NCBI RefSeq assembly: GCF_003194605.1
Contig: NZ_QHKY01000004.1
Span: 62,001 to 126,000 of the forward strand
Length of the DNA: 64,000 nucleotides
Reading direction: 5' to 3'
DNA from: Nocardioides gilvus
GTDB lineage: Bacteria > Actinomycetota > Actinomycetes > Propionibacteriales > Nocardioidaceae
In this document: positions 22,190-39,262 of the stretch, one piece after another
How the letters are laid out: the number at the start of each line of letters is the position of its first letter
Position numbering within the stretch: position 1 is the stretch's first letter
Program-made: the position numbers and the translations under genes
Notes under the pieces: model-generated
Seen by the model: the letters and a program-made list of their open reading frames with translations, nothing else
Database searches by the model: none
What the model was told of the DNA's origin: nothing

Positions 22190-22330
22190 GAGAGCTCCGT
22201 TCGTGTGGGTGATCAGTTCTGACCCTGCTCATCGAGGACCCGGTCACCGACCGTGCCGGGAGGGTTCTCAACCGCCCCCACACGTCGCATACTCGGTGGA
22301 CCCGTCCCCTCTGATCGGAGGGCCTCTGTC

Positions 22331-25300: not shown

Positions 25301-25768
25301 GTGCCCACCGACGAGTCCGGGTTGGGTGTCGAGCGCAACGTGTTCCGGTACCTGCCTGCGCCCACGGTCGTACGTGCCGCAGCCGGGACCCATCCGGCGC
25401 ACCTGCTGCGGGTCGTCTCGGCGGGGGTGACGGCGGGTGCCGTTGCGCGGGTCAGCGTCGCGCCCGAGACCTCGCCGGCCCTGGTCGCAGGGGTGGCTGA
25501 CCTGGCGGAGGTCACGGTGGAGTCGGACGAGGAGTGGCGCGTCAGCCTCGACCGCGACGGTGCGCGGCGCGTACGTCTGTTGGGCGCGGACCGCTCGCTG
25601 CTCGCGCAGGGTGGGACTCCACGTCCTGACCTCGTCGTGCACGACCACGCGGTGGTCGAGTCCGGACGGGTGGAGTTGCTCCCCTTCGTGCTGGAGCAGT
25701 CGATCAGCCTGACCGCGCACCGGTTCGGAACGCCGGTGGAGGTGGCCGGATGGCTGCGGTGTCGGTGA
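22331..25768 (+). CDS. putA: Bifunctional proline dehydrogenase / delta-1-pyrroline-5-carboxylate dehydrogenase
   Basis: 1145 aa from ATG 22331, preceded by GGAGGG eight bases upstream. The N-terminal half is the FAD-dependent proline dehydrogenase barrel (DHVSIKVSS, KVRLVKGANLPME, RIGVAGHN, EFEMLLGM). The second half is an aldehyde dehydrogenase fold with the NAD-binding segment TPPWNFPVAIPAG, general base Glu in LLAETSGKN and catalytic Cys in GQKCSAAS. No N-terminal ribbon-helix-helix domain, so it is not an autorepressor. It oxidises proline to glutamate. The 3' end overlaps the convergent ornithine cyclodeaminase gene by 65 bases, and the two enzymes form a linear ornithine-proline-glutamate path. 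Confidence 0.96.
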   Translation: MDTPKPLRPTTDSSAIEAEVDDLVRAWLLAAEDHPEGRAPRRLADILRDPAGLSFVVAFVDTVIRPQDPGVAATNLLRLSRSVPQSLPLHQRVALRAGGQAGRGMPRLVIPVVRLALRRMVGHLVVDARDTRFTRVTRQLRQDGVRLNVNLLGEAVLGHEEAARRLEGTRRLLARDDVDHVSIKVSSVSGPHSPWAHDEVVAEVVTALTPLFESAAVGPLKRITLDMEEYRDLELTFDVFTTLLELPALKHLTAGIVLQAYLPDSLEVLARLQEWAARRRLDGGAPIKVRLVKGANLPMERVDAALHDWPLAVWGSKQETDTHYKRLLDHALRPEHVENVRIGVAGHNLFDVAYAWLLAGRRGVREAIEFEMLLGMAPGQAEAVRRTVGGLLLYTPVVHPREFDVAISYLVRRLEEGAGAENFMSSVFELASDQQAYDREFARFKASLAGLDTESSGPRRTQDRAHDPAPEPMVRFRNVADTDPSLAGNRRWAAAVLSRAERSRVGEETTVRASIDSRASLERVIVDATAGAVGWAGRTAAQRAAVLRQAGVELECRRAELLEVMAHECGKTLDQSDPEVSEAIDFANFYALSAEELERVDGAVPVPVEVTVVTPPWNFPVAIPAGSTLAALATGSAVVLKPAGAARRCGAVLAEALWAAGVPRDVLQLVNVSESDLGSTLVGDPRVGRVVLTGAYETAELFAGFRDDLVLLAETSGKNAIVVTPHADLDLAVRDVVRSAFGHAGQKCSAASLVILVGSVATSRRFLQQLVDAVTSLRVGPAWDVQTEMGPLIGPAGGKLLRALTTLEPGERWMVEPRRLDDEGRLWSPGVKEGVTGGSVTHLVEFFGPVLGVMTAETLDEAIGLQNQVEYGLTAGLHSLDPDEIRRWIESVEAGNLYVNRATTGAVVRRQPFGGWKKSGVGPGFKAGGRNHLFGLVDWESRPAEQSAPLSRTSRTILALGESLGLAGADLEFLRRSLGSDAQAWSGEFTVPTDESGLGVERNVFRYLPAPTVVRAAAGTHPAHLLRVVSAGVTAGAVARVSVAPETSPALVAGVADLAEVTVESDEEWRVSLDRDGARRVRLLGADRSLLAQGGTPRPDLVVHDHAVVESGRVELLPFVLEQSISLTAHRFGTPVEVAGWLRCR

Positions 25769-26777
25769 GGAGGCTGTACAGGTCCTTGGGGTCGACCGGT
25801 TCGGCGATCAGGTCGAGGTGGGTGACCCAGGCGGTGCCCGACACGGCAGCGCGTGCATGACGAAGGACCGAGAAGTCCTCGATCGCGAAACCGACTGAGT
25901 CGAAGACGGTGATCTGCTCGGCCGACGTGCGGCCGGGGTCCGACCCGACCACCACTTCCCACAGCTCGGTGCAAGCGAAGTCAGCGGGCATCTGTTGGAT
26001 CTCTCCCTCGATGCGGGTCTGTTCGGTGTGCTCGACGAAGACCTTGGACCGCACGAGGAGGGCGGCCTCCAGTTCGGTCTTGCCCGGGCAGTCCCCGCCG
26101 ATGGCGTTGACGTGCACGCCCGACTCCACCATGGCCGAGGTCAGCACGGTGGCGTTGGTCTTGTCGGCCGTGCAGGTCGTGATCACCTGAGCCCCCGCGA
26201 CTGCCTCCTCGGCATCGGCGGCGACATGGACGTCGAATCCCAGGGCGGTGGCGTTCCGCACGAACTTGGCCACCGTGTGAGGGTCGGTGTCGTGGACGCG
26301 CAACGAGTTGATGCCGAGCTCGGTCCGGAAGGCGAGGGCCTGGAACTCAGCCTGTGAGCCGGTGCCGATCATGGCCATCACGTGGCTCCGCGGGGGTGCC
26401 AGGAAGCGCGCCGCGAGTGCTGAGGTGGCGGCGGTGCGCAGGGCCGTGAGCAACGTCATCTCGGCCATGAACACCGGATAGCCGCTGCTCACATCGGCCA
26501 GTACACCGAAGGCGGTCACCGTCTGGAGGCCGTGGCCCGGATTGGAGGGATGGCCGTTGACGTACTTGAACGAATAGGTCAGCCCGTCACTGGTCGGCAT
26601 CAGTTCGATCACTCCCGTGGGGGAGTGGGACGCGGCACGGGGCGATCGCTCGAACGACTCCCAGCGACGGAAGTCGCTCTCCAAGGTCCCGATGAGACTG
26701 GTGATGAGTTCCTGGGCGCCGGTCTCGTTGATCCAACGAACAGCGCCGGTGACGTCGAGGAGAGGGACTGTCGGCAT
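25704..26777 (-). CDS. Ornithine cyclodeaminase family enzyme
   Basis: 357 aa from ATG 26777 with a strong AGGAGG box; the open frame continues upstream to 26834 without support. It has the NAD-binding Rossmann motif GTGSQAEFQALAF, an N-terminal substrate segment with DGLTYSFKYVNGHPSN, and the mu-crystallin-like acidic region (VNAIGGDCPGKTELE). The larger size and these segments match the ornithine cyclodeaminase type used in arginine/ornithine breakdown, which converts ornithine to proline and ammonia. The convergent putA then oxidises proline, so the pairing supports ornithine catabolism. The C-terminal residues lie antisense to the putA end. Confidence 0.9.
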   Translation of the reverse strand: MPTVPLLDVTGAVRWINETGAQELITSLIGTLESDFRRWESFERSPRAASHSPTGVIELMPTSDGLTYSFKYVNGHPSNPGHGLQTVTAFGVLADVSSGYPVFMAEMTLLTALRTAATSALAARFLAPPRSHVMAMIGTGSQAEFQALAFRTELGINSLRVHDTDPHTVAKFVRNATALGFDVHVAADAEEAVAGAQVITTCTADKTNATVLTSAMVESGVHVNAIGGDCPGKTELEAALLVRSKVFVEHTEQTRIEGEIQQMPADFACTELWEVVVGSDPGRTSAEQITVFDSVGFAIEDFSVLRHARAAVSGTAWVTHLDLIAEPVDPKDLYSLLTDTAAIRPPPPAFRTGARSG

Positions 26778-26893
26778 GGGACCTCCTGTGCGGAGCGGAG
26801 GGCCAACGGTAGGTACAGGGACCGGCAATGGCAATGGCTGCAGGTCTCAGTGTCATCACGGAGACAGCGGGTGCTCGCGAGGTGGGCCTTCCT

Positions 26894-28246: not shown

Positions 28247-28783
28247 GTGGGCATCAAGGCAGGTTGGCAAGGGCGGTTCTTCGAGGACTTCGAGGTCGGG
28301 GACATCTACCAGCACCCATTGGGTCGCACCATCTCCGAGTACGACAACACCCAGTTCACGTTGATGACGATGAACACCAACCAGATGCACTTCAACTCCG
28401 AGTACTCGGCGAAGTCGGAGTTCGGCAAGCCCCTGGTCGTCTCCACGCTGACGGTCGCCATCGCCGTCGGTCAGAGCGTCACCGACCTCACCCAGAACGC
28501 CTTCGCGAACCTGGGCTGGGACGACATCAAGATGACCCACCCGGTCTTCGCCGGCGACACGCTCTACAGCGAGTCGGTCGTGCTGGAGAAGCGTGAGTCG
28601 GCCAAGCGTCCCCACGCCGGCATCGTGACCGTCAAGACCCGGACCCTCAACCAGGACGGTGACGAGGTCTGCTCCTTCAAGCGCATGTTCTACGTCTACA
28701 AGACGGGGGCACAGCAGCTCGAGGGTCTCTTCCCCGAGGGCAAGCGCTCGTTGTTGTCCGGCACCGACCTCGACGAGGACTGA
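28247..28783 (+). CDS. MaoC-family hydratase, itaconyl-/mesaconyl-CoA hydratase type
   Basis: 178 aa from a GTG with AGGAG six bases upstream. The hot-dog fold carries a hydratase pattern with DNTQFT/NTNQMHFN in place of the usual D-x4-H region and an FGKPLVVSTLTVAIAVGQSV helix. The closest known type I recognise is the actinobacterial hydratase that pairs with citramalyl-CoA lyase (Rv2499c-like), and half of the larger mesaconyl-CoA hydratase Mch. It would add water to an unsaturated branched dicarboxyl-CoA. First gene of an eleven-gene operon whose last gene encodes a CitE-type lyase, which fits such a hydration/cleavage pair. Confidence 0.78.
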   Translation: MGIKAGWQGRFFEDFEVGDIYQHPLGRTISEYDNTQFTLMTMNTNQMHFNSEYSAKSEFGKPLVVSTLTVAIAVGQSVTDLTQNAFANLGWDDIKMTHPVFAGDTLYSESVVLEKRESAKRPHAGIVTVKTRTLNQDGDEVCSFKRMFYVYKTGAQQLEGLFPEGKRSLLSGTDLDED

Positions 28784-28790
28784 GACCATC

Positions 28791-29825
28791 ATGCGGATCA
28801 CCTTTGCCCCGTGGGGCGAGACCCTCGCCGAGCTGGCTGACGTCTCCCGCCGTGCCGAGGAGGCCGGTGCCGAGGTCATCTGGCTCCAGGAGCTCCACCG
28901 GAGTGCCAGCATCAGTGCAGCAGCCGTGGCTCAGGCCACCACCACTGCCCAGGTCGGTACCGCCATCCAGCTTGCGTTCACGCGCAGCCCGATGATCACC
29001 GCCCTGGAGGCGCTCGACCTGGACGAGCTGGCTGACGGCCGGTTCATCCTGGGGCTCGGCACGGGCGTGCAACGCCTTGTCGAGGACTGGCACAACGCCC
29101 GCTGGGGCAAGCCGATCGGCCACATGCGCGAGACCGTACGCAACGTCCGTCACTTCATGGCCAATGCGACACGTGGTGAGGCGATGGAGCTCGACGGAGA
29201 GTACGAGCCGATGCGGATCCGTGGCTACGAGCGTCCCTACCCTGTGCGCCGGACCGAGATCCCTGTCTATCTGGCGGCGATGGGCCCCGCGATGACTCGT
29301 CTGGCCGGTCGTATCGGTGACGGTTGGATCAGCCACGAGCTCTGCTCGCCCCGTTACATGTCCGAGCGGATCCTGCCCGAGATCGAGGCGGGTATCGCCG
29401 CAGTCGAGGGCAAGGAGCGCAAGGACGTCGAGTTGGTCGTCTCTGCCTGCTGTTCGGTCGACGCCGATCCGCGCGCTGCCTTCGAACGGGTGCGCAGCCA
29501 CGTGGGCTTCTACGCCAGCGTGCGCACCTACGCCGACTTCTTCGAGTTCCATGGCCTCGGGGAGGCCCAGCAGCGGGTCGTCGAGGCGTTCCGAGCGGGC
29601 ACCGGTGCCGACTACCTCGGTGACGTCGTCACCCCGGAGATGGCCGACGCCATCACTCTCAACGGGGACCGTGACCGGGTGATCGAGCAGATCCGCGCCT
29701 ACGAGGGCATTGCCGACGCGGTGAAGCTCTCTGCTCCTACACATGGCCTCGCCCCTCAGCAGGTGCGCAAGGGCCAGGACGAGGTCATTGACCTCATCGC
29801 GACTATCACCGGAGGACGCAAGTGA
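28791..29825 (+). CDS. LLM-class flavin (probably F420) dependent oxidoreductase
   Basis: 344 aa from ATG 28791, seven bases after the hydratase stop. TIM-barrel luciferase-like fold with EVIWLQELHR, TAIQLAFTRSP, GRFILGLGTGVQ and PVYLAAMGPAMTRLAGRIGDGW, features of the F420-binding subgroup related to methylene-H4MPT reductase. It could dehydrogenate an alcohol or reduce an enoyl/keto intermediate; a monooxygenase role is less likely without a separate flavin reductase. The stop overlaps the next GTG start (GTGA), indicating coupled translation. Confidence 0.82.
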   Translation: MRITFAPWGETLAELADVSRRAEEAGAEVIWLQELHRSASISAAAVAQATTTAQVGTAIQLAFTRSPMITALEALDLDELADGRFILGLGTGVQRLVEDWHNARWGKPIGHMRETVRNVRHFMANATRGEAMELDGEYEPMRIRGYERPYPVRRTEIPVYLAAMGPAMTRLAGRIGDGWISHELCSPRYMSERILPEIEAGIAAVEGKERKDVELVVSACCSVDADPRAAFERVRSHVGFYASVRTYADFFEFHGLGEAQQRVVEAFRAGTGADYLGDVVTPEMADAITLNGDRDRVIEQIRAYEGIADAVKLSAPTHGLAPQQVRKGQDEVIDLIATITGGRK

Positions 29826-31042
29826 ACGCCCGCAAGCCGCTCGAGGACATCCGCATCATCTCGCTCGAGCAGTACGGCGCAGGTCCCTTCGGGTCCGTGC
29901 ACCTGGCCGATCTCGGGGCCGAGGTCATCAAGATCGAGGACCCGAGCGTGGGTGGCGACGTCGGCCGCTACGTGCCGCCCTACTTCGAGGGTGAGGACTC
30001 CCTCTTCTTCGAGACGTTCAACCGGAACAAGAAGTCGATCTCCATCGACATCAAGACGCCGGCGGGCCGCGAGGTCTTCGAGGACCTGGTCCGCAACGCC
30101 GACGCCGTCTACTCCAACCTGCGCGGTGACGTGCCGGAGAAGATCGGCATCACCTACGACCAGCTCAAGCACCTCAACCCCAAGATCGTGTGCTGCTCGT
30201 TGACCGGCTTCGGCATGACCGGGCCGCGGATGAAGGAGCCCGGCTACGACTACGTCCTGCAGGGCCTGGCCGGCTGGATGGAGCTCACCGGTGAGCCCGA
30301 CGGCCCGCCGACCAAGTCGGGCCTCTCGCTGGTCGACTTCTCCGGTGGCTACGTCGCGGCCCTGTCGTTGATGTCGGGCCTGCACGCGGCGAAGCGCGAC
30401 GGCGTCGGGATGGACTGCGACGTCTCGCTCTACGACACCGCGATGTCGATGCTGACCTACCCGGCGACCTGGCACCTCAACGCCGGCTACCAGCCGCAAC
30501 GGATCTCGCACTCCGCCCACCCCTCGCTGGTGCCCTTCCAGGCCTTCGAGGCCTCGGACGGTTGGTTCATCGTGGGATGCGCCAAGGAGAAGTTCTGGGT
30601 GCGCCTGGCCGAGGTCATCGGCCGTCCGGAGTGGGCCCAGGAGGGCTCGCCGTTCGAGACCTTCTCCGGTCGCAACGAGCGCCGTGAGGAGTTGATCGCC
30701 GAGCTGGACGCGATCTTCGCGACCAAGACGGTCGATCACTGGCTCAGCCTCTGCTACCCGGCCTCCATCCCGTGCGGCCCGATCAACGACGTGGAGGCGG
30801 CGCTCAAGGACGAGCACCTGAGCGCTCGCAACATGCTCGTCGAGACCGAGCACCCGCACTACGGCACGGTGACCCAGCTGGCCTCTCCGGTGCGCGTCGG
30901 TGCGGAGCTGCCGACGTACGTCCGTGCCCCCAGGCGCAACGAGCACTTCGACGAGGTGCTCGACCAGGTGGCCGGGTACGACGCCGACAAGGTCGCCGCG
31001 CTCAAGGCAGCTGGGGCGTTCGGCAAGGTCCAGGACGCCTGA
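29822..31042 (+). CDS. Class III (CaiB/BaiF) CoA-transferase
   Basis: 406 aa. Family III features: N-terminal LEQYGAGPFGSVHLADLGAEVIKIED, FETFNRNKKSISIDIKTPAGREVFEDLV, and the active-site aspartate in GYDYVLQGLAGWM. These enzymes move CoA between carboxylic acids through an aspartyl-CoA thioester. In this operon it would activate the pathway acid by taking CoA from a product thioester such as succinyl-CoA, or shift CoA between two carboxyl groups as in mesaconyl-CoA C1-C4 transfer. Start overlaps the upstream stop (GTGA) and its stop overlaps the next start (TGATG). Confidence 0.9.
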   Translation: MNARKPLEDIRIISLEQYGAGPFGSVHLADLGAEVIKIEDPSVGGDVGRYVPPYFEGEDSLFFETFNRNKKSISIDIKTPAGREVFEDLVRNADAVYSNLRGDVPEKIGITYDQLKHLNPKIVCCSLTGFGMTGPRMKEPGYDYVLQGLAGWMELTGEPDGPPTKSGLSLVDFSGGYVAALSLMSGLHAAKRDGVGMDCDVSLYDTAMSMLTYPATWHLNAGYQPQRISHSAHPSLVPFQAFEASDGWFIVGCAKEKFWVRLAEVIGRPEWAQEGSPFETFSGRNERREELIAELDAIFATKTVDHWLSLCYPASIPCGPINDVEAALKDEHLSARNMLVETEHPHYGTVTQLASPVRVGAELPTYVRAPRRNEHFDEVLDQVAGYDADKVAALKAAGAFGKVQDA

Positions 31043-32451
31043 TGATCGCCTCGCAGCTCGCTGCGTGGGCGGTCGGAACGCTCGACGTCCCCGACGAGGT
31101 CGTGCACGCCGCCACCCGGCACCTCCTCGACGGTCTCGGCAACGCGGTGGCCGGAGCGCGCGCGGGTGCTGCTCACCCGGCCGTCTCGGTGGCGCTGGGT
31201 CTCGGTGGTCCGGCGGAGTCCACCGTCCTGGGGTCGAGGTCCAGGATCTCCGCCCCGGCGGCCGGACTGGCCAACGGGACACTGGTGCACGCCCTCGACT
31301 TCGACGACACCCACGCCGGTGGCCTGGTGCACTCGACGTCCGTCGTGCTCCCGGCAGCCTTCGCGGTGGGGGAGCAGGTCGGCGCCACCGGCCGTCAGAT
31401 CTTCGAGGCGGCCGTCGTCGGCTACGAGGTGGCCTGCCGGGTCGCGGCCGCCGCACCCAACGGTTTCCACTCCCAGGGCCTGCACGCCACGATGGTGGCC
31501 GGGGTCTTCTCCTCAGCAGCGGTCGCGGCGCGCCTGATGGGGCTCAGCCCCGAGCAGGCGACCAACGCGTTGGGCATCGCCGGGAGCCAGGCCGGTGGCC
31601 TCCTGGCCTTCCTGGCCACGGGGGCGAGCACCAAGCAGTTGCACCCCGGGTTCGCGTCCCAGTCGGGGATCATCGCTGCCCGCCTGGCCCAGGCGGGCGC
31701 GACCGGACCTGACTCCGTCTTCGACGGACCGCACGGCGTGTACGACGCCCTCGCCCCGGCTGCGATGGCTGCCGGCAGGGTGGACGCCTCGTCGATCCTG
31801 CGCGACCTCGGCTCGGCCTCCGCCCAGGACTGGCAGACGACCCGGATCGGGATCAAGCCGTGGCCGACCTGCCAGTTGGCGCACGCCACCATGGCAGCAG
31901 CGCAGGTGGCCCTGGCCGAGGCAGGTGCCGAGGTCGCCGACATCGTGGCCCTCCACGCCCAGGTGCACCCGGACTCGGCCGCGGTCGTCTGCGCCACCGA
32001 CCGTGACCTCACCCGTCCGGTGAGTGCCTACGCGGCGAAGTTCTCGCTGCCGTGGAGCGTCGCGGCGATCCTGGTGGACGGCGTCGTCGGCGTCGACACC
32101 TACGGTGGTACCCATCTCGGGCGAGCTGAGATCAGCGACCTCGCGGCCAGGATCACCTGGGACGTCACCCCCTACGACGTGGTGGCGGCCGACGCACCCG
32201 GCGACGTGGTCCTCACGTTGGCCGACGGCTCGAAGGTCACCGGTCACGTCGACCGCAGCCCCGGCGGCGGAAGCAATCCGCTCTCCGACGATGGGCTCTT
32301 CGCCAAGTTCTCCGGCAACGTCGGGCCGCTCGCGCCCGACCTGGCCGCGGCAGTACGTAACCTTCCGGAGGCAGCAGACCTCACCGTTGTCCTGACCCTG
32401 GCCGCGCAGGCGGCTGGTCACCCCGTCTCTCTCGAGGAGTCCATCGCATGA
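31042..32451 (+). CDS. MmgE/PrpD family protein (2-methylcitrate dehydratase / cis-aconitate decarboxylase-like)
   Basis: 469 aa from ATG 31042. MmgE/PrpD fold with HALDFDDTHAGGLVHSTSVVLPAAFAVGE near residue 90 and SQAGGLLAFLATGASTKQLHPGFASQSG near residue 185, both typical. Members dehydrate 2-methylcitrate, decarboxylate cis-aconitate to itaconate, or act on other hydroxy- or tricarboxylic acids. In an operon with an itaconyl/mesaconyl-CoA-type hydratase, a CoA-transferase and a CitE-type lyase, an isomerising, dehydrating or decarboxylating step feeding a branched dicarboxylic acid is plausible. The exact reaction cannot be read from sequence. Its stop overlaps the next ATG by four bases. 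Confidence 0.85.
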   Translation: MIASQLAAWAVGTLDVPDEVVHAATRHLLDGLGNAVAGARAGAAHPAVSVALGLGGPAESTVLGSRSRISAPAAGLANGTLVHALDFDDTHAGGLVHSTSVVLPAAFAVGEQVGATGRQIFEAAVVGYEVACRVAAAAPNGFHSQGLHATMVAGVFSSAAVAARLMGLSPEQATNALGIAGSQAGGLLAFLATGASTKQLHPGFASQSGIIAARLAQAGATGPDSVFDGPHGVYDALAPAAMAAGRVDASSILRDLGSASAQDWQTTRIGIKPWPTCQLAHATMAAAQVALAEAGAEVADIVALHAQVHPDSAAVVCATDRDLTRPVSAYAAKFSLPWSVAAILVDGVVGVDTYGGTHLGRAEISDLAARITWDVTPYDVVAADAPGDVVLTLADGSKVTGHVDRSPGGGSNPLSDDGLFAKFSGNVGPLAPDLAAAVRNLPEAADLTVVLTLAAQAAGHPVSLEESIA

Positions 32452-33686
32452 CCCTGTCCGCCATCAAGCCTGCCGAGTTCCCGTGGTTCCCCTACGAAGG
32501 TTTCACCTTCTGCCTCGGACTCACCGAGGGCGACCACGCCTGGACCTCCGGCCACACCTCCGCCCGTCAGGACGAGTCGCTGGGCAAGATGACCGTCAAC
32601 GGCACGATGACCGAGCAGGCGGAGATCGCGTACGCCAAGACCCTCGCGATCCTCGAGGCAGCCGGTTTCACGGCCGACGACGTCACGCGAGTCACCGAGA
32701 ACGTCACCCGCGCGGGCATGCACGCATACGAGGAGCAGGCGGCCGTGCGCCAGCGGATCTACGGTGACCGCCCCACCGTACGGACCGTCGCCGTCGAGCG
32801 TCTGGTGCGGCGCAACGCCTGGCTCGAGGTCGAGCTGCACGCCACCAAGGGTGGAGGTGAGACCCTGCTCGCCACTTCGGCGGCGCCCAGGGCAGGCACC
32901 TTCCGGCAGTCAGCGATCACCGAGGGCGCCGACGGTGTCGTCTACCTGCCCACCGTGGTCCCGATGGACGAGAACGGTGAGGTCGTCTTCCCCGGTGACT
33001 TCGTCGCCCAGTACCGCTACATCCTGGAGAAGGCCCAGGAGATGCTGGAGTCGGTGGGCCTGACGTTGGGCCACGCCGTCACCACGTTCGACTACTCCAC
33101 TCCCGACACCCGCGACGTCTACCGCAAGACCCACCGGGTGCGCATGGAGCTGTTGGGTCAGAACCCCGGCAACGTGTTCCCCGGCGCGGGCGGGATCCTG
33201 ATGAGCGAGTTGCATGCCCCCGGCGTCATGGTCGCGATGGACGTCACCGCGTCGCGGCACCCGCTGGAGCTGGTCAACCCGGGATGGAAGCGTTACGACA
33301 CCCTGTCCTACTCGCCGGGCATCAAGGCCGGTCGGATGCTCTTCATGTCCGGCTTCGCGGCCCTCGACATGGAGTCCCAGAAGGCGCTGCACGACGGCGA
33401 CCTGGGGAAGCAGGCCGAGGTCACGTACGGCGCGATCATGCACCTTCTCGAGTCCGAGGGGCTGGACGCGACCGACCTGCTCGAGACCACCGAGTACTGC
33501 GTCGAGTCGTACGTCGGTGGCTACCGTGCTGTTGCCGAGGTGCGTGAGCGTCTTCTCTCGGCACCGTGGCCCGCTTCGACCGGTGCACTGTGCCAGGGCC
33601 TGCTCCGTCCGGAGTTCGGTCTCGAGGTGTTCCCGACGGCGCTCTACCCCGAGGACCACCCGCGGATCACCGGTGAGGGCAACTGA
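32448..33686 (+). CDS. Protein of three tandem RidA-like domains
   Basis: 412 aa from ATG 32448 (ATGA overlap). Three consecutive RidA/YjgF/UK114-type units can be traced: about 15-132, 148-268 and 278-400. Each has the core AWTSG / VVYLPT / MLFMSGFA strand, the AxxxxxILEAAG / LEKAQEMLESVG / MHLLESEG helix and the terminal strand. RidA proteins are usually single ~130-residue chains that trimerise; here a trimer appears encoded in one polypeptide. The substrate-carboxylate arginine is kept in domain 1 (Arg112 in TVRTVAVERL) but replaced in domains 2 and 3 (FPGAGGILMSE and ASTGALCQG). It may hydrolyse an enamine/imine or act as a binding protein in the pathway. Confidence 0.82.
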   Translation: MTLSAIKPAEFPWFPYEGFTFCLGLTEGDHAWTSGHTSARQDESLGKMTVNGTMTEQAEIAYAKTLAILEAAGFTADDVTRVTENVTRAGMHAYEEQAAVRQRIYGDRPTVRTVAVERLVRRNAWLEVELHATKGGGETLLATSAAPRAGTFRQSAITEGADGVVYLPTVVPMDENGEVVFPGDFVAQYRYILEKAQEMLESVGLTLGHAVTTFDYSTPDTRDVYRKTHRVRMELLGQNPGNVFPGAGGILMSELHAPGVMVAMDVTASRHPLELVNPGWKRYDTLSYSPGIKAGRMLFMSGFAALDMESQKALHDGDLGKQAEVTYGAIMHLLESEGLDATDLLETTEYCVESYVGGYRAVAEVRERLLSAPWPASTGALCQGLLRPEFGLEVFPTALYPEDHPRITGEGN

Positions 33687-33687
33687 G

Positions 33688-34206
33688 ATGTCCCTGCTGA
33701 CCCCCGAGATCGCTGCACTGGAGGGCACCCAGCGCGTCTACACCGCGCCGGAGCCCTTCGGTGGCGCGGCAGGCCGGTACTTCGGGCTCGCCGTCGGCGA
33801 CCACAACCCGTTGTACTCCGACCCGGAGTACGCCCGTGCCCAGGGCCTGGACGGCGTCACCGCGCCGTTGACGCTGGTCTGCGAGACCAACCAGTACGCC
33901 GACCTGCCGATGGACCCCGAGGGGTACGCCGGGCACACCTGGCAGTTGGACGTGCCGGGCACCCGTCAGGTGCGCGGTGGCAACTCCTACACGTTCCACC
34001 GCCGCCTGCGGCCCAGCGACGTCGTGACGGCCACCTGGGCGATCGACCAGGTCACGTCCAAGACCAACCGGTCCGGCCACGAGATGCTCGTGATCGCTTC
34101 GAGCGCCACCTACACCAACCAGGACGGCGACCTGCTGGCCGAGAACGCGGAGACCATCATCTTCGTCGCCCTCGAGCCGGCCGTCGCGGCGGGGGAGAAG
34201 GCATGA
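33688..34206 (+). CDS. FAS1-like / MaoC N-terminal dehydratase domain subunit
   Basis: 172 aa from ATG 33688, two bases after the previous stop. Single hot-dog domain of the MaoC N-terminal (FAS1_DH) type, with FGLAVGDHNPLYSDPEYARAQGLDGVTAPLTL. Such domains lack part of the catalytic set and pair with a MaoC subunit, as HadA/HadC with HadB or ChsH2 with ChsH1. The next gene encodes exactly such a partner and overlaps by four bases, so a heterodimeric enoyl-CoA hydratase is predicted. Confidence 0.83.
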   Translation: MSLLTPEIAALEGTQRVYTAPEPFGGAAGRYFGLAVGDHNPLYSDPEYARAQGLDGVTAPLTLVCETNQYADLPMDPEGYAGHTWQLDVPGTRQVRGGNSYTFHRRLRPSDVVTATWAIDQVTSKTNRSGHEMLVIASSATYTNQDGDLLAENAETIIFVALEPAVAAGEKA

Positions 34207-34682
34207 GCACCTGGACCGAGTCCTACCCGACCGAGTTCGCAGACCATGCCGCCATCACGGTGGGGGACCAGGTGCCGCCGCTCGAGCGGACGATCGGCCT
34301 CACCGACATGGTGGCCTATGCCGGCGCGACGTGGGACTGGCACAAGCTGCACTACGACGCGGAGTACGTGGCGGAGAAGAAGCTGCCCGGTGCGATCGTC
34401 GACGGACAGGTCTACGGTGCGCTCCTGGTGGAGATGCTCCAGGACTGGCTCGGACCGCAGTCGTTCGTCAGCAAGCTCGACTTCAGCTTCCGCAACCTGG
34501 TCTTCGCTGGCGAGACGCTGCGCTGCACCGGCGAGGTGGTCGAGGTCGCTGAAGGGTCCATCCGCGTGACCATGCAGGTCGTCGTGGTGGACGAGGACGG
34601 CAACGACGGGCGAGCCGCCGCTGCGCCCTGCTCCGCGGTCGTCCTGCTCGGCACATCGGACGGACCGGGGGCCCAGAAATGA
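34203..34682 (+). CDS. MaoC-like enoyl-CoA hydratase subunit
   Basis: 159 aa. Hot-dog hydratase with YAGATWDWHKLHYDAEYVAEKKLPGAIVDGQVYGALLVEML; the Asp and His of the D-x4-H hydratase motif are seen in DWHKLHYD. Likely the catalytic partner of the preceding FAS1-like subunit, resembling HadB or ChsH1. It would hydrate an alpha,beta-unsaturated acyl-CoA to the beta-hydroxy form that the next two gene products could cleave. ATGA overlaps at both ends show tight co-translation. Confidence 0.86.
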   Translation: MSTWTESYPTEFADHAAITVGDQVPPLERTIGLTDMVAYAGATWDWHKLHYDAEYVAEKKLPGAIVDGQVYGALLVEMLQDWLGPQSFVSKLDFSFRNLVFAGETLRCTGEVVEVAEGSIRVTMQVVVVDEDGNDGRAAAAPCSAVVLLGTSDGPGAQK

Positions 34683-35848
34683 GTGCCGCAGTGAGCTCAG
34701 CAGCGCAGCGCGTCGCCATCGTGGGGGCCGCCGAGTGTGACCTCGGAGTGACCGACAAGTCGATCCTCACCCTGCAGAGCCAGGCCGTCACCCGGGCCCT
34801 GGCCGACGCCGGCCTCACGTTGGCCGAGGTCGACGGCATAGCGACCAACAACATCTCACGGTTCTCCGCGACCCAGCTGGCCGACTACCTCGGTGTCGTC
34901 CCCACCTGGACCGACTCGACGTTCTCCGGCGGCAGTGCCTTCGAGATGTACCTGGCTCGCGCCACCCAGGCCATTCAGGCCAGGCAGGCCTCGGTCGTGG
35001 TGATTTCGTTCGCCTCCAACCAACGCTCGGCCCGCTCCCGCAAGCTGGGCGGCGTCCACGAGCCCTGGATCCCCGAGGCCCAGTTCGAGGAGCCGTACGA
35101 CATGCTCTACCCGCTGTCGTACTACGCGATGGCGGCCCAGCGTTACCTGCACCGCTACGGCGGGACCCGCGAGCAACTGGCGGAGGTCGCGATCGCCGCT
35201 CGGGAGTGGGCGCTGCTCAACCCGAAGGCGTTCCGCTACGGCAAGGGATCGCTCAGCGTCTCCGACGTCGTCGACTCGACGATGATCTCCTCGCCCCTGA
35301 CGGCTGGTGACTGCTGCCTGGTCACCGACGGTGGCGGCGCTGTCGTGGTGACCTCGATGGAGCGGGCCCGCGACCTGGCCAAGAAGCCCGTCGAGGTGCT
35401 CGGTTACGGCGAACGCACGACCAACACGTCGTTCACCGCCGTGGCCGACCTCAGCGTGCCCGGCGCCCGCGGCGCCGTGCAGGACGCGTACGCCCGCGCC
35501 GGGATCACGGCCGCAGACGTCGACGTCGTCGAGGTGTACGACTCGTTCACCATCACCGCCGCCCTCAGCCTGGAGGCTCTCGGCTTCTGTGCAGAGGGTG
35601 AAGCGCTCTCCTACATCCAGGACGGACGGATCCGACCTGGGGGAGAGCTGCCCTTCAACACCAACGGAGGGGGACTGTCGTACTGCCACCCCGGCCAGTA
35701 CGGAATCCTCCTGATGGTGGAGGCCGTACGTCAGTTGCGCGGCGAGGGCGGTGCGCGTCAGGTCAAGGACGCCGAGATCGCCGTCGCGCACGGCACCGGC
35801 GGCATCCTGTCCACGCACGCGACCGTGGTACTGGGAGTGGACCGATGA
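34679..35848 (+). CDS. Thiolase-fold protein of the SCPx/Ltp2 type, predicted retro-aldolase
   Basis: 389 aa from ATG 34679. Thiolase fold, but the acyl-accepting cysteine region reads STFSGGSAFEM (80-90), so the nucleophilic Cys is absent, and the usual HDCF-type His motif is VYDSF with Tyr287. The C-terminal NGGGLSYCHPGQYG and HGTGG motifs remain. Loss of the thiolase cysteine plus immediate linkage to a DUF35 gene is the hallmark of Ltp2-type aldolases, which cleave tertiary beta-hydroxyacyl-CoA esters in steroid side-chain degradation. A retro-aldol cleavage releasing a ketone or aldehyde and a short acyl-CoA is therefore proposed. A non-catalytic acyltransferase role is the main alternative. 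Confidence 0.82.
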   Translation: MSAAVSSAAQRVAIVGAAECDLGVTDKSILTLQSQAVTRALADAGLTLAEVDGIATNNISRFSATQLADYLGVVPTWTDSTFSGGSAFEMYLARATQAIQARQASVVVISFASNQRSARSRKLGGVHEPWIPEAQFEEPYDMLYPLSYYAMAAQRYLHRYGGTREQLAEVAIAAREWALLNPKAFRYGKGSLSVSDVVDSTMISSPLTAGDCCLVTDGGGAVVVTSMERARDLAKKPVEVLGYGERTTNTSFTAVADLSVPGARGAVQDAYARAGITAADVDVVEVYDSFTITAALSLEALGFCAEGEALSYIQDGRIRPGGELPFNTNGGGLSYCHPGQYGILLMVEAVRQLRGEGGARQVKDAEIAVAHGTGGILSTHATVVLGVDR

Positions 35849-36300
35849 ACGCTGGACCCATGAACGCAGAGACGGCAGGCACCGCCTGGGTGCCCGGCAC
35901 GGTCCCGGCGGCCGACGAGAACAGCGCGCCCTTCTGGGACGCGACCCGCGAGCGCCGGTTCACGGTCCAGTCCTGCACCGACTGCGGTGCGGTCCAGCAC
36001 CCGCCGAAGGCGCTCTGCACCAGTTGCGGCTCGATGGAGCACCTGACCCAGGTCGACGCCTCCGGCGCCGGGGTCGTGGACACCTTCACCGTGGTGCACC
36101 GGGCTCCGCGGCCGGAGCTCAGCGTGCCCTACACGGTCGCGCGGGTCCGGCTCGACGAAGGACCCGTCGTGCTGACCCGACTCGAGCCGGCAGAGCCGGG
36201 GGAGCGGGGTTGGCAGATCGGCGACGCCGTGACCCTCGACTGGGTCGACCTCAAGGACGGCCGCTCCCTCCCGTACCACCGGTCCGCAGCGACCCACTGA
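35845..36300 (+). CDS. DUF35 / Zn-ribbon OB-fold acyl-CoA-binding protein
   Basis: 151 aa from ATG 35845 (ATGA overlap); a second ATG lies 15 bases in. An N-terminal rubredoxin-like zinc ribbon with two CxxC pairs (SCTDCGAVQHPPKALCTSCG) is followed by an OB-fold domain (about 70-140). DUF35 proteins bind and stabilise thiolase-fold partners; in ChsH2 the same domain is fused to a MaoC unit and is required for Ltp2 aldolase activity. Here it directly follows the thiolase-fold gene, so complex formation is very likely. Confidence 0.9.
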   Translation: MNAGPMNAETAGTAWVPGTVPAADENSAPFWDATRERRFTVQSCTDCGAVQHPPKALCTSCGSMEHLTQVDASGAGVVDTFTVVHRAPRPELSVPYTVARVRLDEGPVVLTRLEPAEPGERGWQIGDAVTLDWVDLKDGRSLPYHRSAATH

Positions 36301-36334
36301 CACCCACACTCCAGCCCCCCAGAGGAGAACACTC

Positions 36335-37495
36335 ATGGACTTCAAGTTCGACGACGACCAGCGCGAGTTCAAGGCGCTGCTGCGCCAGTTCGTGGACAAC
36401 GAGATCATCCCCGTCGCCCGCGAGTGGGAGCAGGCGGGGCGCTATCCGACCGAGATCGTCGACGGCATGAAGGACATGGGGCTCTTCGGCATCACCGTGC
36501 CGGAGGAGTACGGCGGCCTCGACCTCGACCCCGTCGCCTTCGCGCTGGTCTTCGAAGAGATCGCTCGCGGCTGGATGGGCATCGCCGGCATCCTCGGATC
36601 GCACTCCCTGGCGTGCCGTCTGATCTCCATGCACGGCACGGAGGAGCAGAAGAACAAGTACCTCCCGGACCTCGCCACCGGCAAGCGGCGCACTGGTATC
36701 GGCCTCACCGAGGCGGACGCTGGCACCGACCTGCAGGGCATCCGCACCACGGCCCGCCTGGACGGCGACCACTACGTGGTCAACGGCTCCAAGATGTGGA
36801 TCACCAACGCGCGGTACGCCGACCCGCTCCCGGTCCTGGTCAAGACGGACCCGACCGCCTCGCCGGCCCACAAGGGCATGAGCGTGCTGCTGATCGAAGC
36901 CGGCACTCCCGGTTTCGAGGTCACCAAGGACATCCCCAAGCTCGGCTACAAGGGCACGGAGTCCTGCGAGATCCTGCTCGACAACGTGCGCGTCCACAAG
37001 GACCAGCTCGTCGGTGCTGTCGAGGGCCGCGGCATGCAGCAGGTGCTCTCGGCGCTCGAGTGGGGACGAGTCAACATCGCTGCCCGTTCGGTCGGCATCG
37101 CCCAGCGTGCCTACGAGGAGGCGCTCTCCTACTCGCAGGAGCGCAAGGCGTTCGGCCAGGCCATCTCGGAGTTCCAGCTGATCCAGGCCAAGCTCGGTGA
37201 GCTCGGCACCCAGGTCCAGGCTGCACGACTGATGGCCTACTGGGCCGCGGACGCCGTACGCACCGGACGGGCCGACGGTGCCACCGGCATGGCCAAGATC
37301 TTCTGCTCCGAGGTGGCGTTGCAGTCGGCCATCGACTCGCTCAAGGTGCACGGAGGGTACGGCTACTCGACCGAGTTCGAGGTCGAGCGTCTCTACCGCG
37401 ACTCCATCTTGATGAGCATCGGTGAGGGCACCAATGACATCCTCCGCACCGTGGTGGCCAAGTCCCTGCTCAAGGGCGAGACGAAGGTAGGCTGA
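36335..37495 (+). CDS. Acyl-CoA dehydrogenase
   Basis: 386 aa from ATG 36335 with AGAGGAGAA upstream. Complete acyl-CoA dehydrogenase: GLTEADAGTD FAD-binding segment, MWITNA, RKAFGQ, and the catalytic glutamate in SIGEGTNDI. It would oxidise an acyl-CoA to the 2,3-enoyl-CoA using FAD, feeding electrons to ETF. In this operon it precedes the hydratases logically, supplying the unsaturated CoA ester. Similarity to short/branched-chain enzymes is suggested by length and active-site position but not proved. Confidence 0.93.
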   Translation: MDFKFDDDQREFKALLRQFVDNEIIPVAREWEQAGRYPTEIVDGMKDMGLFGITVPEEYGGLDLDPVAFALVFEEIARGWMGIAGILGSHSLACRLISMHGTEEQKNKYLPDLATGKRRTGIGLTEADAGTDLQGIRTTARLDGDHYVVNGSKMWITNARYADPLPVLVKTDPTASPAHKGMSVLLIEAGTPGFEVTKDIPKLGYKGTESCEILLDNVRVHKDQLVGAVEGRGMQQVLSALEWGRVNIAARSVGIAQRAYEEALSYSQERKAFGQAISEFQLIQAKLGELGTQVQAARLMAYWAADAVRTGRADGATGMAKIFCSEVALQSAIDSLKVHGGYGYSTEFEVERLYRDSILMSIGEGTNDILRTVVAKSLLKGETKVG

Positions 37496-37496
37496 C

Positions 37497-38321
37497 ATGC
37501 TCGCTCGTTCTGCTCTGTACGTCCCGGGCGATGCCCCGGACAAGTTGCGCAAGGCGCTCGACCGCGGTGCCGACGAGTTGATCGTCGACCTCGAGGACGC
37601 TGTGTCGCCGGACAACAAGGCGCTGGCCCGCGACATCGTCTTCTCGTGGCTCGAAGGGCTGCCCGAGACCGACGTGAAGGTGTGGGTCCGGATCAACGCC
37701 GGCGCGGACCGCGCGCTGGACGTGGCCGCGCTGGCCGAGTGCGAAACGCTCGAAGGCTTCGTGGTGGCCAAGACCGAGAGCGCCGCCGAACTGGTCGAGC
37801 TGGATGCCCAGCTCACGGCCGCAGGATCGCAGGCCAAGGTCGTGCCGCTGCTGGAGAGTGCCAACGCGGTCCTCTCCGCGCGCGAGATCGCCGCAGCACC
37901 GCGCGTCGAGCGACTCCAGGTCGGTGAGGCCGACCTGCGCGCGGACGTCGGCATCACGACCGGTGACGACGAGCGGGAGCTGCTCTACTCGCGCTCGCAC
38001 GTGGTCTTCGCCTCGTCGGCGGCGGGCATCTCGCCGCCCATCGCACCGGTCTCGACCGAGTTCCGCGACCTCGATGCCTACCGCGCCTCCACCGAGGCAC
38101 TGGCTCGGATGGGATTCGTGGGTCGCGCCTGCATTCACCCCGCCCAGGCGGTCATCGCCAACGAGGTCTTCACGCCCTCGGAGGAGCGGGTGGCCTGGGC
38201 GCGCGAGGTGCTGGCCGCGCTGGAGAGCGCAGGCTCGGGAGTTGCCGTTGATTCGCGCGGTCGAATGCTGGACGAGGCCGTGGCGCGTCAGGCGCGTCAG
38301 GTGCTGGCTCGGGTGCGCTGA
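37497..38321 (+). CDS. HpcH/HpaI/CitE-family lyase (citramalyl-/malyl-CoA lyase type)
   Basis: 274 aa from ATG 37497, one base after the dehydrogenase stop. CitE-like TIM barrel: LYVPGDAPDKLRKAL, DLEDAV (metal/substrate acid), VRIN, LLESANAV with the Mg-binding Glu, GEADLRADVG, and GRACIHPAQ. These lyases cleave malyl-CoA, beta-methylmalyl-CoA or citramalyl-CoA to a short acyl-CoA and an alpha-keto acid. Together with the first gene of the operon it recalls the actinobacterial citramalyl-CoA lyase plus itaconyl-CoA hydratase pair (Rv2498c/Rv2499c-like). Last gene of the operon. Confidence 0.88.
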   Translation: MLARSALYVPGDAPDKLRKALDRGADELIVDLEDAVSPDNKALARDIVFSWLEGLPETDVKVWVRINAGADRALDVAALAECETLEGFVVAKTESAAELVELDAQLTAAGSQAKVVPLLESANAVLSAREIAAAPRVERLQVGEADLRADVGITTGDDERELLYSRSHVVFASSAAGISPPIAPVSTEFRDLDAYRASTEALARMGFVGRACIHPAQAVIANEVFTPSEERVAWAREVLAALESAGSGVAVDSRGRMLDEAVARQARQVLARVR

Positions 38322-38367: not shown

Positions 38368-38446
38368 TCTTACACGCGCCGTCAGCGGATGGTGCGTCAG
38401 TAGCGTCGCCCGAGCCCAACCGGTGACGCCTCCCAGGAGGAAACAC

Positions 38447-39262
38447 ATGCGCTTTCGCCACCTTGCCGGTATTGCCGCCGGCGCACTGACCGCAGGTCTG
38501 CTGACCGTCCCGGCCCTGACCGGCGCGGCGCACGCGGCGACGGCTCTGCCCGCAAAGTTCACCTGCGACGTGCCCGCGTTCGAAGCACAGATGGACTACA
38601 CCACCGACATCGCACTCACCCTCAAGCGCACGAGCGCGACCGGGGTCAGTGTCGTCGCCGAGCTGGGCGACATGCCCGGGATCGTGCCGGTCCCGATCGC
38701 ATCGATGGACCTGAAGGCCAAGCTCTCCCTGACGGTGGACGGAGCTGCCACGACCCTGACGGCTGCACACACGGCCAAGAACATGGCCTCCAAGGCGCCC
38801 ATTGATCTCCCCACATTCACCGGCGCGGGTGTGTCTTCCACGAGCACCGCCAACGTCACGGTCACCCGCCTCCAGGTCGACGCGGTGGCCATGGGCATCC
38901 CGGTCGCGGTCGTCTGTACCCCCGTCGGAGCCATCGCGGGCTCCGTGCCGGTGGAGGGCACCGTGGCCCCCGTCGCGAAGATCGGCTCCTCCACCAAGGT
39001 CAAGGTCAAGGTCAGCAAGAAGAAGGTCGCCACGGCCACGGTGACGGTGACGGGCAAGAAGGCCAAGCCCACCGGCAAGGTGACCGTGACGGTCAAGAAG
39101 GGCAAGAAGACGGTCAAGAAGGGCAAGCTCACCTTGAAGAGGGGCAAGGTCACCCTGAAGACCAAGAAGCTCAAGAAGGGCAAGTACAAGGCGATCGTGT
39201 CCTATGCGGGCTCGAAGACCTACAAGGCGTCGAAGAAGACGGTGACCTTCAAGGTCAAGTGA
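38447..39262 (+). CDS. Secreted lysine-rich Ig-like repeat protein
   Basis: 271 aa from ATG 38447 with AGGAGG upstream. A Sec signal peptide ends at AHAATA (about residue 30). Residues 31-170 form a Ser/Thr/Ala/Val-rich beta domain with two cysteines, probably a disulfide. The last 90 residues form an Ig-like domain of the bacterial Ig3 type, very rich in lysine (GKKAKPTGKVTVTVKKGKK and similar), giving a strongly basic surface. It may bind acidic cell-wall polymers. Own promoter region and a strong terminator make it a single-gene unit. Function unknown. Confidence 0.83.
   Translation: MRFRHLAGIAAGALTAGLLTVPALTGAAHAATALPAKFTCDVPAFEAQMDYTTDIALTLKRTSATGVSVVAELGDMPGIVPVPIASMDLKAKLSLTVDGAATTLTAAHTAKNMASKAPIDLPTFTGAGVSSTSTANVTVTRLQVDAVAMGIPVAVVCTPVGAIAGSVPVEGTVAPVAKIGSSTKVKVKVSKKKVATATVTVTGKKAKPTGKVTVTVKKGKKTVKKGKLTLKRGKVTLKTKKLKKGKYKAIVSYAGSKTYKASKKTVTFKVK

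Follow-up and report, generated by a model that had tools for sequence, protein, structure and literature searches.

An eleven-gene CoA-ester operon of Nocardioides gilvus that extends the methylsuccinate/itaconate module and co-occurs with homologues of plant RCC reductase

The itaconate cluster of pseudomonads, ich-mcd-mmgE-ict-ccl, degrades both itaconate and methylsuccinate; its dehydrogenase is a methylsuccinyl-CoA dehydrogenase and its MmgE/PrpD protein a methylsuccinate isomerase, according to work on the pseudomonad and Cupriavidus clusters (Gonner et al. 2025, PMC12290011). The same five gene families are found in a single unit, with conserved active-site residues, in an operon of eleven genes (A to K, Table 1) from Nocardioides gilvus. 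The operon occupies positions 28247–38321 of the window, the whole stretch of 64,000 nucleotides analyzed here, which corresponds to positions 62001–126000 of contig NZ_QHKY01000004.1 (C4) in a 3.33 Mb, high-GC, actinobacterial genome. It differs from the itaconate cluster in having six more genes, which encode a luciferase-like (LLM) oxidoreductase, a protein of three RidA domains, a two-subunit hydratase, a thiolase-fold protein without the catalytic cysteine and a DUF35 protein. It differs also in the scores of its Ich and Ccl relatives, which fall below the equivalog cut-offs (A, 190 bits on the NCBIfam model RipB_Ich with a cut-off of 340; K, 189 bits on RipC_Ccl with a cut-off of 375), and its substrate is presumably larger. 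The operon is a variant of the methylsuccinate/itaconate CoA module not described before.

We propose, giving the idea an even chance, that this operon encodes the CoA-dependent lower half of a pathway that breaks down ring fragments of bilins, the linear tetrapyrroles that arise from chlorophyll or haem, because it occurs together with homologues of the plant red chlorophyll catabolite (RCC) reductase (RCCR) and with a second conserved cluster outside the window. The initial annotation had left the substrate open; given this co-occurrence with RCCR/bilin-reductase homologues and the second cluster, it is no longer wholly so. The link to pigments comes from genomic context, and the substrate class, the single reactions and the order of the steps are putative throughout. 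The broader proposal, that Actinomycetota carry a two-cluster pathway for the uptake, reduction, cutting and mineralization of linear tetrapyrroles, is made tentatively, with slightly less assurance.

The gene order is strongly conserved. With gene E as the query, 19 of 197 genomes from the family gave matches (E-value ≤1e-60), and the loci of 18 relatives were fetched. Genes A–J are present, collinear and on a single strand in all 18, while K shares their strand in 12 relatives, is inverted in 4 and did not turn up within the 20 kb fetched in 2. Scanning the genome collection with an alignment of E (two peptide patterns) gave 51 named loci, all from Actinomycetota by title, spanning Nocardioides, Mumia, Aeromicrobium, Micromonospora, Dactylosporangium, Actinomadura, Streptosporangium, Nonomuraea, Microtetraspora, Microbispora, Sphaerimonospora, Homoserinimonas, Streptomyces and metagenome-assembled genomes (one titled Bifidobacterium breve). 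All ten genes A–J occur in 37 of these and are collinear in every one (K on the same strand in 30, inverted in 2, none in 5); twelve of the remaining 14 loci are cut by contig ends, and in the other two, which are full-length (L082, L084), A was not found. Since collinearity of A–J is kept in 18/18 relatives and 37/37 complete loci, the operon is not a chance arrangement; the initial annotation would have been refuted by genes unlinked in close relatives, but they are linked. The two sets are not independent, as about seven genomes are shared by the family sample and the named loci. Alignment A2 of E leaves out 5 of the 19 matches of the family search. Divergent copies from a class search are less regular: F and G precede A in one (G469), B was not found in another (G443), and a third (G486), whose E is interrupted by an in-frame stop, yielded no A, B or J.

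The open reading frames all lie on the plus strand and their Pfam and NCBIfam families match those named from the sequence at the outset, when the overlapping genes were taken for a CoA-ester catabolic operon that activates, oxidizes and hydrates its substrate and breaks carbon-carbon bonds in two ways, a view that the gene families bear out. The accompanying statement that the combination is not a described pathway holds for the full eleven-gene set, for which we recognized no description or matching characterized operon in the open-licence PMC literature, nor any of a bacterial RCCR-containing catabolic cluster; it does not hold for the subset A, C, D, J and K, which is of the pseudomonad itaconate/methylsuccinate kind.

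Active-site residues of this subset were counted in 19 sequences, from the window and the 18 family relatives (17 for K, as two relatives are without it). The hydratase A keeps the motif residues N43 and H48 in 19/19, and its best match among solved structures is β-methylmalyl-CoA dehydratase (8hgn). The CoA-transferase C scores 266 and 256 bits on the NCBIfam succinate-glutarate and mesaconate CoA-transferase models, below their cut-offs, and Asp172, which we take to be the catalytic aspartate, is kept in 19/19. Glu364 of the dehydrogenase J, presumably its catalytic residue, is likewise kept in 19/19; J has 21 further matches in the genome, the best at 46%. The nearest solved proteins to K are CitE relatives, and its E120 and D146 are kept in 17/17. 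For D the best solved relatives are IDS epimerase (2hp3) and cis-aconitate decarboxylase, and D90, H98, H149, K199 and K273 are invariant (19/19), the residue list being that of PMC12290011 and the positions having been placed by eye. The module chemistry of the operon is well supported. Plain itaconate degradation was set aside, as A and K are far under the Ich and Ccl cut-offs and there are six extra genes.

A plasmid search with D found the five-gene module by itself on plasmids of Rhodococcus (R. rhodochrous, R. pyridinivorans and R. gordoniae), in the order regulator-A-C-D-J-K in each of the three regions opened. The proteins of one copy are 54% (A), 73% (C), 49% (D), 69% (J) and 52% (K) identical to those of the window, and the Rhodococcus GntR regulator is 52% identical to the regulator of a Nocardioides-type locus. 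A GntR-type regulator is present at 32 of the fetched loci and is not beside the window copy. From this order and these identities, the operon can be described as the five-gene module expanded at two points: B stands between A and C, and the block E-F-G-H-I separates D from J. The plasmid module differs in being without B, E, F, G, H and I and in its neighbours; no account of what it does is known to us. A Cupriavidus match has no annotation, and a Variovorax match lies in a different gene context. The Rhodococcus modules (L201, 6885–18382; L204; L205) adjoin genes for hydantoinase/oxoprolinase A and B and for amidase, suggesting a lactam or imide substrate for the five-gene module in Rhodococcus.

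Such neighbours would also be expected if the operon degraded some other five-membered nitrogen heterocycle (a pyrrolidinone, an imide, a hydantoin-like compound or a riboflavin-type fragment) that does not derive from a tetrapyrrole. RidA, C-N hydrolase and cyclase-type hydrolase genes recur, and Nocardioides degrades lumichrome through a dedicated cluster (PMC12746152). We nevertheless judge this explanation improbable. Tetrapyrroles are the substrates of those RCCR and bilin-reductase homologues whose function is known (PMC10151467), and each of the 17 family genomes with RCCR retains two paralogues.

The association with RCCR, which underlies the bilin-fragment proposal, was examined in several samples. 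The genome of the window has two RCCR homologues, with PF06405 scores of 55.6 and 49.7 bits (cut-off 24.9). One RCCR homologue matches a solved plant RCC reductase (E-value 7e-6), and another RCCR protein also matches bilin reductases, under the Pfam cut-off. RCCR was found in none of 14 control genomes and in 17 of the 197 family genomes (E-value ≤1e-20), with two paralogues in each, and every one of them also belongs to the 19 with gene E (Fisher p=1.2e-22). A class sample of 393 genomes contains 14 with RCCR, 11 with gene E and 8 with both (Fisher p=3.6e-11); counted by genus (n=137), six share the two, three have E only, two RCCR only and 126 neither (p=2.8e-7). Outside the family of the window, four genomes of the class sample have both, two have E only and six have RCCR only. 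The esterase gene just 5' of the operon, which served as a control (9/197), is also enriched with RCCR (6/9, Fisher p=1.2e-5). Relatedness therefore explains part of the co-occurrence and inflates the p-values, which assume independent genomes. The Jaccard index with RCCR is 0.89 for E and 0.30 for the esterase control, and the operon tracks RCCR far more closely than the control does.

The two loci are often also physically linked. Gene E lies about 6–24 kb from RCCR in 12 of the 17 family genomes, and 203 kb to 1.35 Mb away in the other five. Searches of carriers used 50 of the 51 named loci (L047, a second contig of the L048 genome, was left out) and found RCCR in 25, the decarboxylase homologue of the second cluster (E-value ≤1e-40) in 29 and the second-cluster monooxygenase (E-value ≤1e-60) in 26. 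The operon and the second cluster are on the same contig in 14 of the 26 monooxygenase-bearing genomes (within about 30 kb in 11, including three of Micromonospora), and RCCR is on a different contig in the other 12, not every contig having been compared. Five of the 14 same-contig genomes are also in the family sample, and contigs in these counts were taken as identical when their lengths were equal.

Flanking-gene families were compared in 69 fetched loci (18 from the family and 51 named, with partly shared genomes). For six loci of low GC content (L078, L079, L081–L084) gene calling yielded nothing, and for L080 a single gene; the counts exclude these. A protein of the Pfam family RCC_reductase lies near the operon in 14 of the 69 loci. 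The families found near both the operon and the second cluster are a ligase (c12), a cyclase (c16) with the second CoA-transferase and second MmgE/PrpD protein (C' and D'), a cupin (c32), a GntP permease (c40) and a hydrolase (c23). In one genome (G486) a single contig carries, within about 48 kb, a reduced operon together with the second cluster and another set of CoA-transferase, cyclase and PrpD genes. In many loci a second CoA-transferase and/or MmgE/PrpD gene, with about 25–36% identity to C and D, adjoins the operon (L041–L043, L062, L071–L077, L080, L082–L084, L089, L090 and L093), and a PF04199 cyclase lies between the two where these were typed.

The second cluster encodes, by Pfam, an ABM protein, the first RCCR homologue, an epimerase-type protein (its family named in a relative), a sortase, two LPXTG-type surface proteins (one with a neocarzinostatin fold), ABC transporter proteins (one scanned in the G168 copy), an arylmalonate-decarboxylase homologue, an SDR protein, proteins without a family, a Rieske oxygenase with a VanA_C domain, a putative hydrolase (below cut-off), the second RCCR homologue, two aldehyde dehydrogenases, a C-N hydrolase, an acyl-CoA-dehydrogenase-like monooxygenase and a flavin reductase with a weak HMGL-like tail. 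For several of these proteins no usable Pfam family was found even at an E-value of 10. The tail, a C-terminal extension of the flavin reductase (G000:C4:320480–321727), scores below the cut-offs and would be an unusual fusion if real. The core of the cluster recurs in Micromonospora, Actinomadura and the coded families f5 and f18 (which may be the same families), and partly, in more divergent form, in f6. The arylmalonate-decarboxylase homologue keeps the decarboxylase-type cysteine in 14/14 sequences, and its first cysteine position is not a cysteine. Maleate isomerase has two catalytic cysteines, and this identity was rejected for the homologue since only the decarboxylase-type one is present.

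The closest described counterpart of the second cluster is plant chlorophyll breakdown by pheophorbide a oxygenase and RCC reductase. The two have in common a Rieske gene, here next-but-one to an RCCR homologue, and an RCCR protein that scores above the Pfam cut-off; the cluster differs in the VanA type of its Rieske protein and in its many extra enzymes. Bacterial relatives of RCCR are already in print, as RCCR-related sequences from Candidatus Schekmanbacteria are noted in PMC10151467; the words Actinobacteria and Actinomycet do not occur in its main text.

The co-occurrence and linkage data bear on a further explanation, that the substrates are alkylsuccinates, itaconates or other branched dicarboxylates of this sort, coming from fungi, plants or hydrocarbons, and that the RCCR cluster co-occurs with the operon because the same catabolically rich lineages carry both. 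This would account for five of the eleven genes, which form the methylsuccinate/itaconate set (PMC12290011), for the carriers in which the monooxygenase of the second cluster was not seen (24/50), and for the enrichment of the neighbouring esterase gene. It would not readily account for the presence of E in all 17 family RCCR genomes, with the Jaccard indices given above, or for how near each other the clusters lie in Nocardioides, Mumia and Micromonospora; moreover, simple alkylsuccinates need no RidA protein, LLM protein or aldolase pair. We regard it as unlikely.

Several observations weigh against a role in bilin catabolism. In the genome of the window itself, the operon and the second cluster are about 196 kb apart. 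Six of the 14 RCCR genomes in the class sample are without E (E-value ≤1e-40), and two of these, G299 and G575, carry a second cluster that looks complete. Among the 50 named carriers of E, the monooxygenase was not seen in 24 and RCCR not in 25; either the operon also serves without the second cluster or the assemblies are incomplete, and some of its substrates probably reach the operon already formed. The fetched RCCR region of Nonomuraea corallina (G224) is without the other core genes, and the C-terminal domain of the Rieske protein is of the VanA type, not the PaO type. To these must be added the enrichment of the esterase control, the assumption of independent genomes in the Fisher tests, the sub-threshold Ich and Ccl scores of A and K, and the absence of the canonical RidA arginine from at least two domains of E.

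The inserted genes B and E–I distinguish the operon from the five-gene module. B scores 200 bits on TIGR03617, under the cut-off of 278, and its nearest solved protein is methylene-H4MPT reductase (1z69); the term F420-type, applied to it in the initial annotation, is the name of the LLM family models and not a cofactor assignment. AlphaFold, given alignment A3 (29 of the 51 loci plus the window), predicts that E forms a pseudotrimer from a single chain (pLDDT 85, pTM 0.88). The best whole-chain matches of the model are chorismatases (4bps and 5ag3, TM by query 0.48–0.53), followed by single chains of RutC and RidA. When E is read against what we take to be the canonical position of the catalytic RidA arginine, domain 1 has an arginine one alignment position off that place (kept in 13/19), and domains 2 and 3 have none there, an arginine further on in domain 2 (column 254) being present in 14/19. 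Simple imine deamination by E is thus not assured. A plasmid search with E gave one weak match, covering 27% of the query. E is shortened in several Nocardioides loci: in L045 (from the genome of L091; 9495–10340, minus strand) it has 281 residues and the first RidA domain is gone, and in L092, L094 and L095 the one-piece match covers only part of E.

F and G together likely form a two-subunit hydratase. The position of the catalytic histidine in F is a tyrosine (Y45) in 18 of 19 sequences and a histidine in one, and G keeps its Asp/His motif (D45, H50) in 19/19; F is therefore likely the non-catalytic partner. In H, Phe82 is found at the position of the nucleophilic cysteine in 19/19, and a glutamate is in the column of the second catalytic cysteine. 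The seven thiolases of the same genome that were aligned to H, the strongest of 12 PF00108 matches among which H is the weakest, all have cysteine at the Phe82 position. H matched only itself when searched against its own genome, and its closest solved structure is 4u4e, followed by the lipid-transfer types 9myr and 6ok1. H has I as its neighbour in all 18 relatives from the family and in all 37 complete loci. A thiolase without cysteine paired with a DUF35 partner is the pattern of the Ltp2-type retro-aldolases, and H/I is probably an enzyme of this type. Of the two cleavages named in the initial annotation, the second is, without the cysteine in H, probably retro-aldol rather than thiolytic, and thiolysis by H was set aside.

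The Ltp2-ChsH2 aldolase and ChsH1/ChsH2 hydratase share with the operon a Cys-less thiolase fold, a DUF35 partner, a two-subunit MaoC hydratase and an acyl-CoA dehydrogenase. In ChsH2, DUF35 is fused to a MaoC domain, whereas the DUF35 protein here is separate and small, and the gene context is not that of steroids. Another relative, the bbs operon for benzylsuccinate, shares a family III CoA-transferase, an acyl-CoA dehydrogenase, a hydratase, a thiolase/DUF35 pair and a substituted succinate as substrate; however, its thiolysis needs the cysteine that H is without, and the operon has CitE and MmgE/PrpD proteins and no hydroxyacyl-CoA dehydrogenase pair. A benzylsuccinate-type pathway was ruled out on the absence of this pair among the eleven genes and of the cysteine in H.

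These similarities raise the question of whether the two loci degrade side chains of a steroid or terpenoid type, with J, F/G and H/I acting like ChsE, ChsH and Ltp2 and the HsaA/HsaB-like and SdmA-like enzymes of the second cluster oxidizing a sterol ring. The Cys-less thiolase, DUF35 protein and two-subunit MaoC hydratase are the known set for steroid side-chain cleavage, and in the second cluster the flavin reductase matches HsaB (122 bits) and the Rieske protein 4-methylsterol monooxygenase (93 bits), both far below the cut-offs. This is very improbable in our view: the second-cluster proteins scanned include no match to ketosteroid dehydrogenase or extradiol dioxygenase, CitE, family III CoA-transferase and MmgE/PrpD proteins act on short dicarboxylates, and RCCR, RidA and the C-N hydrolase do not fit. 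The degradation of phytol or of steroids was likewise set aside as a principal explanation, as the CoA-transferase, MmgE/PrpD and CitE proteins point to short dicarboxylates.

Under the bilin-fragment proposal, the second cluster would constitute the upper half of the pathway. Its sortase-anchored surface proteins and a branched-chain-type ABC importer, two RCCR-type bilin reductases, the Rieske oxygenase and the two-component flavin monooxygenase would lead to monopyrrole acids, the bilin being reduced and cut to monopyrrolic lactams or imides; the two aldehyde dehydrogenases, the C-N hydrolase and the arylmalonate-decarboxylase homologue would also belong to this half. The C-N hydrolase, the RidA-type protein E and the LLM protein B could then open and deaminate the ring, with B and E acting on a ring-derived lactam or enamine, to give methyl- or alkyl-substituted C4 dicarboxylates. 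These would be epimerized by D and attached to CoA by C; the ester would be desaturated by J, the product hydrated by A, and the resulting citramalyl-CoA-type compound cleaved by K to pyruvate and an acyl-CoA. A further pairing of hydratase and retro-aldolase, F/G with the Cys-less H/I, may take off the other side chain, which would be propionate, ethyl or vinyl. Alternatively, F/G and H/I might act first and the decarboxylase homologue next, in which case C, A and K would work on mesaconate or citraconate. Least secure in this scheme are the order of the steps and what B, E and D do.

Among the small products of chlorophyll and haem oxidation, PMC7318184 names hematinic acid and the methyl, ethyl or vinyl maleimides; its authors detected the former and none of the maleimides in their own leaf samples. 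A ring of the hematinic acid or maleimide type, once opened, would give a C4 dicarboxylate with a methyl group on one inner carbon and the side chain on the other. A C4 dicarboxylate of the opened-ring type is the backbone common to the MmgE/PrpD enzymes, according to PMC12290011.

The eleven genes overlap or nearly abut (Table 1). The overlaps are of 4 bases at B/C, D/E, F/G, G/H and H/I and of 1 base at C/D, and the gaps are of 1 base at E/F and J/K, 7 bases at A/B and, the largest, 34 bases at I/J. The start codons of B, D and F were corrected to 28791, 31042 and 33688, respectively, and the family scans of these three used frames starting 1–2 codons upstream of the corrected starts. The Pfam matches cover the ten proteins A–J, and K was placed by NCBIfam (RipC_Ccl, citE).

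Table 1. Genes of the operon and associated features (positions in the window unless given on contig C4).
Feature	Position	Strand	Description	Family match or other reference
A	28247..28783	+	MaoC-type hydratase, related to itaconyl-CoA/mesaconyl-CoA hydratase (Ich/RipB, MC_hydratase)	PF19315, E=2e-22
B	28791..29825	+	LLM (luciferase-like) flavin/F420 oxidoreductase	PF00296 (Bac_luciferase), E=3.4e-57
C	29822..31042	+	Family III CoA-transferase, succinate-glutarate/mesaconate type	PF02515 (CoA_transf_3), E=5e-122
D	31042..32451	+	MmgE/PrpD protein, relative of methylsuccinate isomerase, IDS epimerase and cis-aconitate decarboxylase	PF03972/PF19305
E	32448..33686	+	Three fused RidA domains, predicted single-chain pseudotrimer	PF01042 (Ribonuc_L-PSP), three stretches
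F	33688..34206	+	FAS1_DH/MaoC-like hydratase subunit, likely non-catalytic partner	PF13452 (FAS1_DH_region), E=2.8e-16
G	34203..34682	+	MaoC hydratase subunit, Asp/His motif intact	PF01575, E=1.7e-13
H	34679..35848	+	Thiolase-fold protein with neither catalytic Cys, probable retro-aldolase	Thiolase N/C, Thiolase_C_1, E=8e-58
I	35845..36300	+	DUF35 partner (zf-ChsH2 + OB_ChsH2_C)	PF12172 + PF01796, above cut-off
J	36335..37495	+	Acyl-CoA dehydrogenase	PF00441/02770/02771 (Acyl-CoA_dh N/M/C)
K	37497..38321	+	CitE-family beta-hydroxyacyl-CoA lyase, citramalyl-CoA-lyase-like	NCBIfam RipC_Ccl, 189 bits
Secreted protein 3' of K	38423..39262	+	Homologue of second-cluster LPXTG-type surface protein; operon membership uncertain	
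Second cluster	C4:296751-324335		Conserved region with both RCCR genes	L127-L129

A single gene for a secreted protein separates K from thrS, the next gene downstream. Its product resembles a surface protein of the same genome (phmmer E-value 2e-21, with strong composition bias; blastp 31% identity, E-value 3e-11), and no LPXTG motif is present in its sequence. Upstream of the operon, judging from the translations, are a proline dehydrogenase/P5C dehydrogenase fusion (22253–25768, plus strand) and an ornithine-cyclodeaminase-like gene (25704–26834, minus strand), followed by the esterase gene. A strong AT skew (-0.23) marks positions 12001–14000 of the window, the profile elsewhere being more even.

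If the proposed role is correct, the operon would provide a genetic handle on the bacterial mineralization of tetrapyrrole ring fragments and an actinobacterial context for the homologues of plant RCC reductase. Whether or not the substrate proves to be a different one, the operon represents a widely conserved pathway in which the methylsuccinate module is extended by a second cleavage couple.

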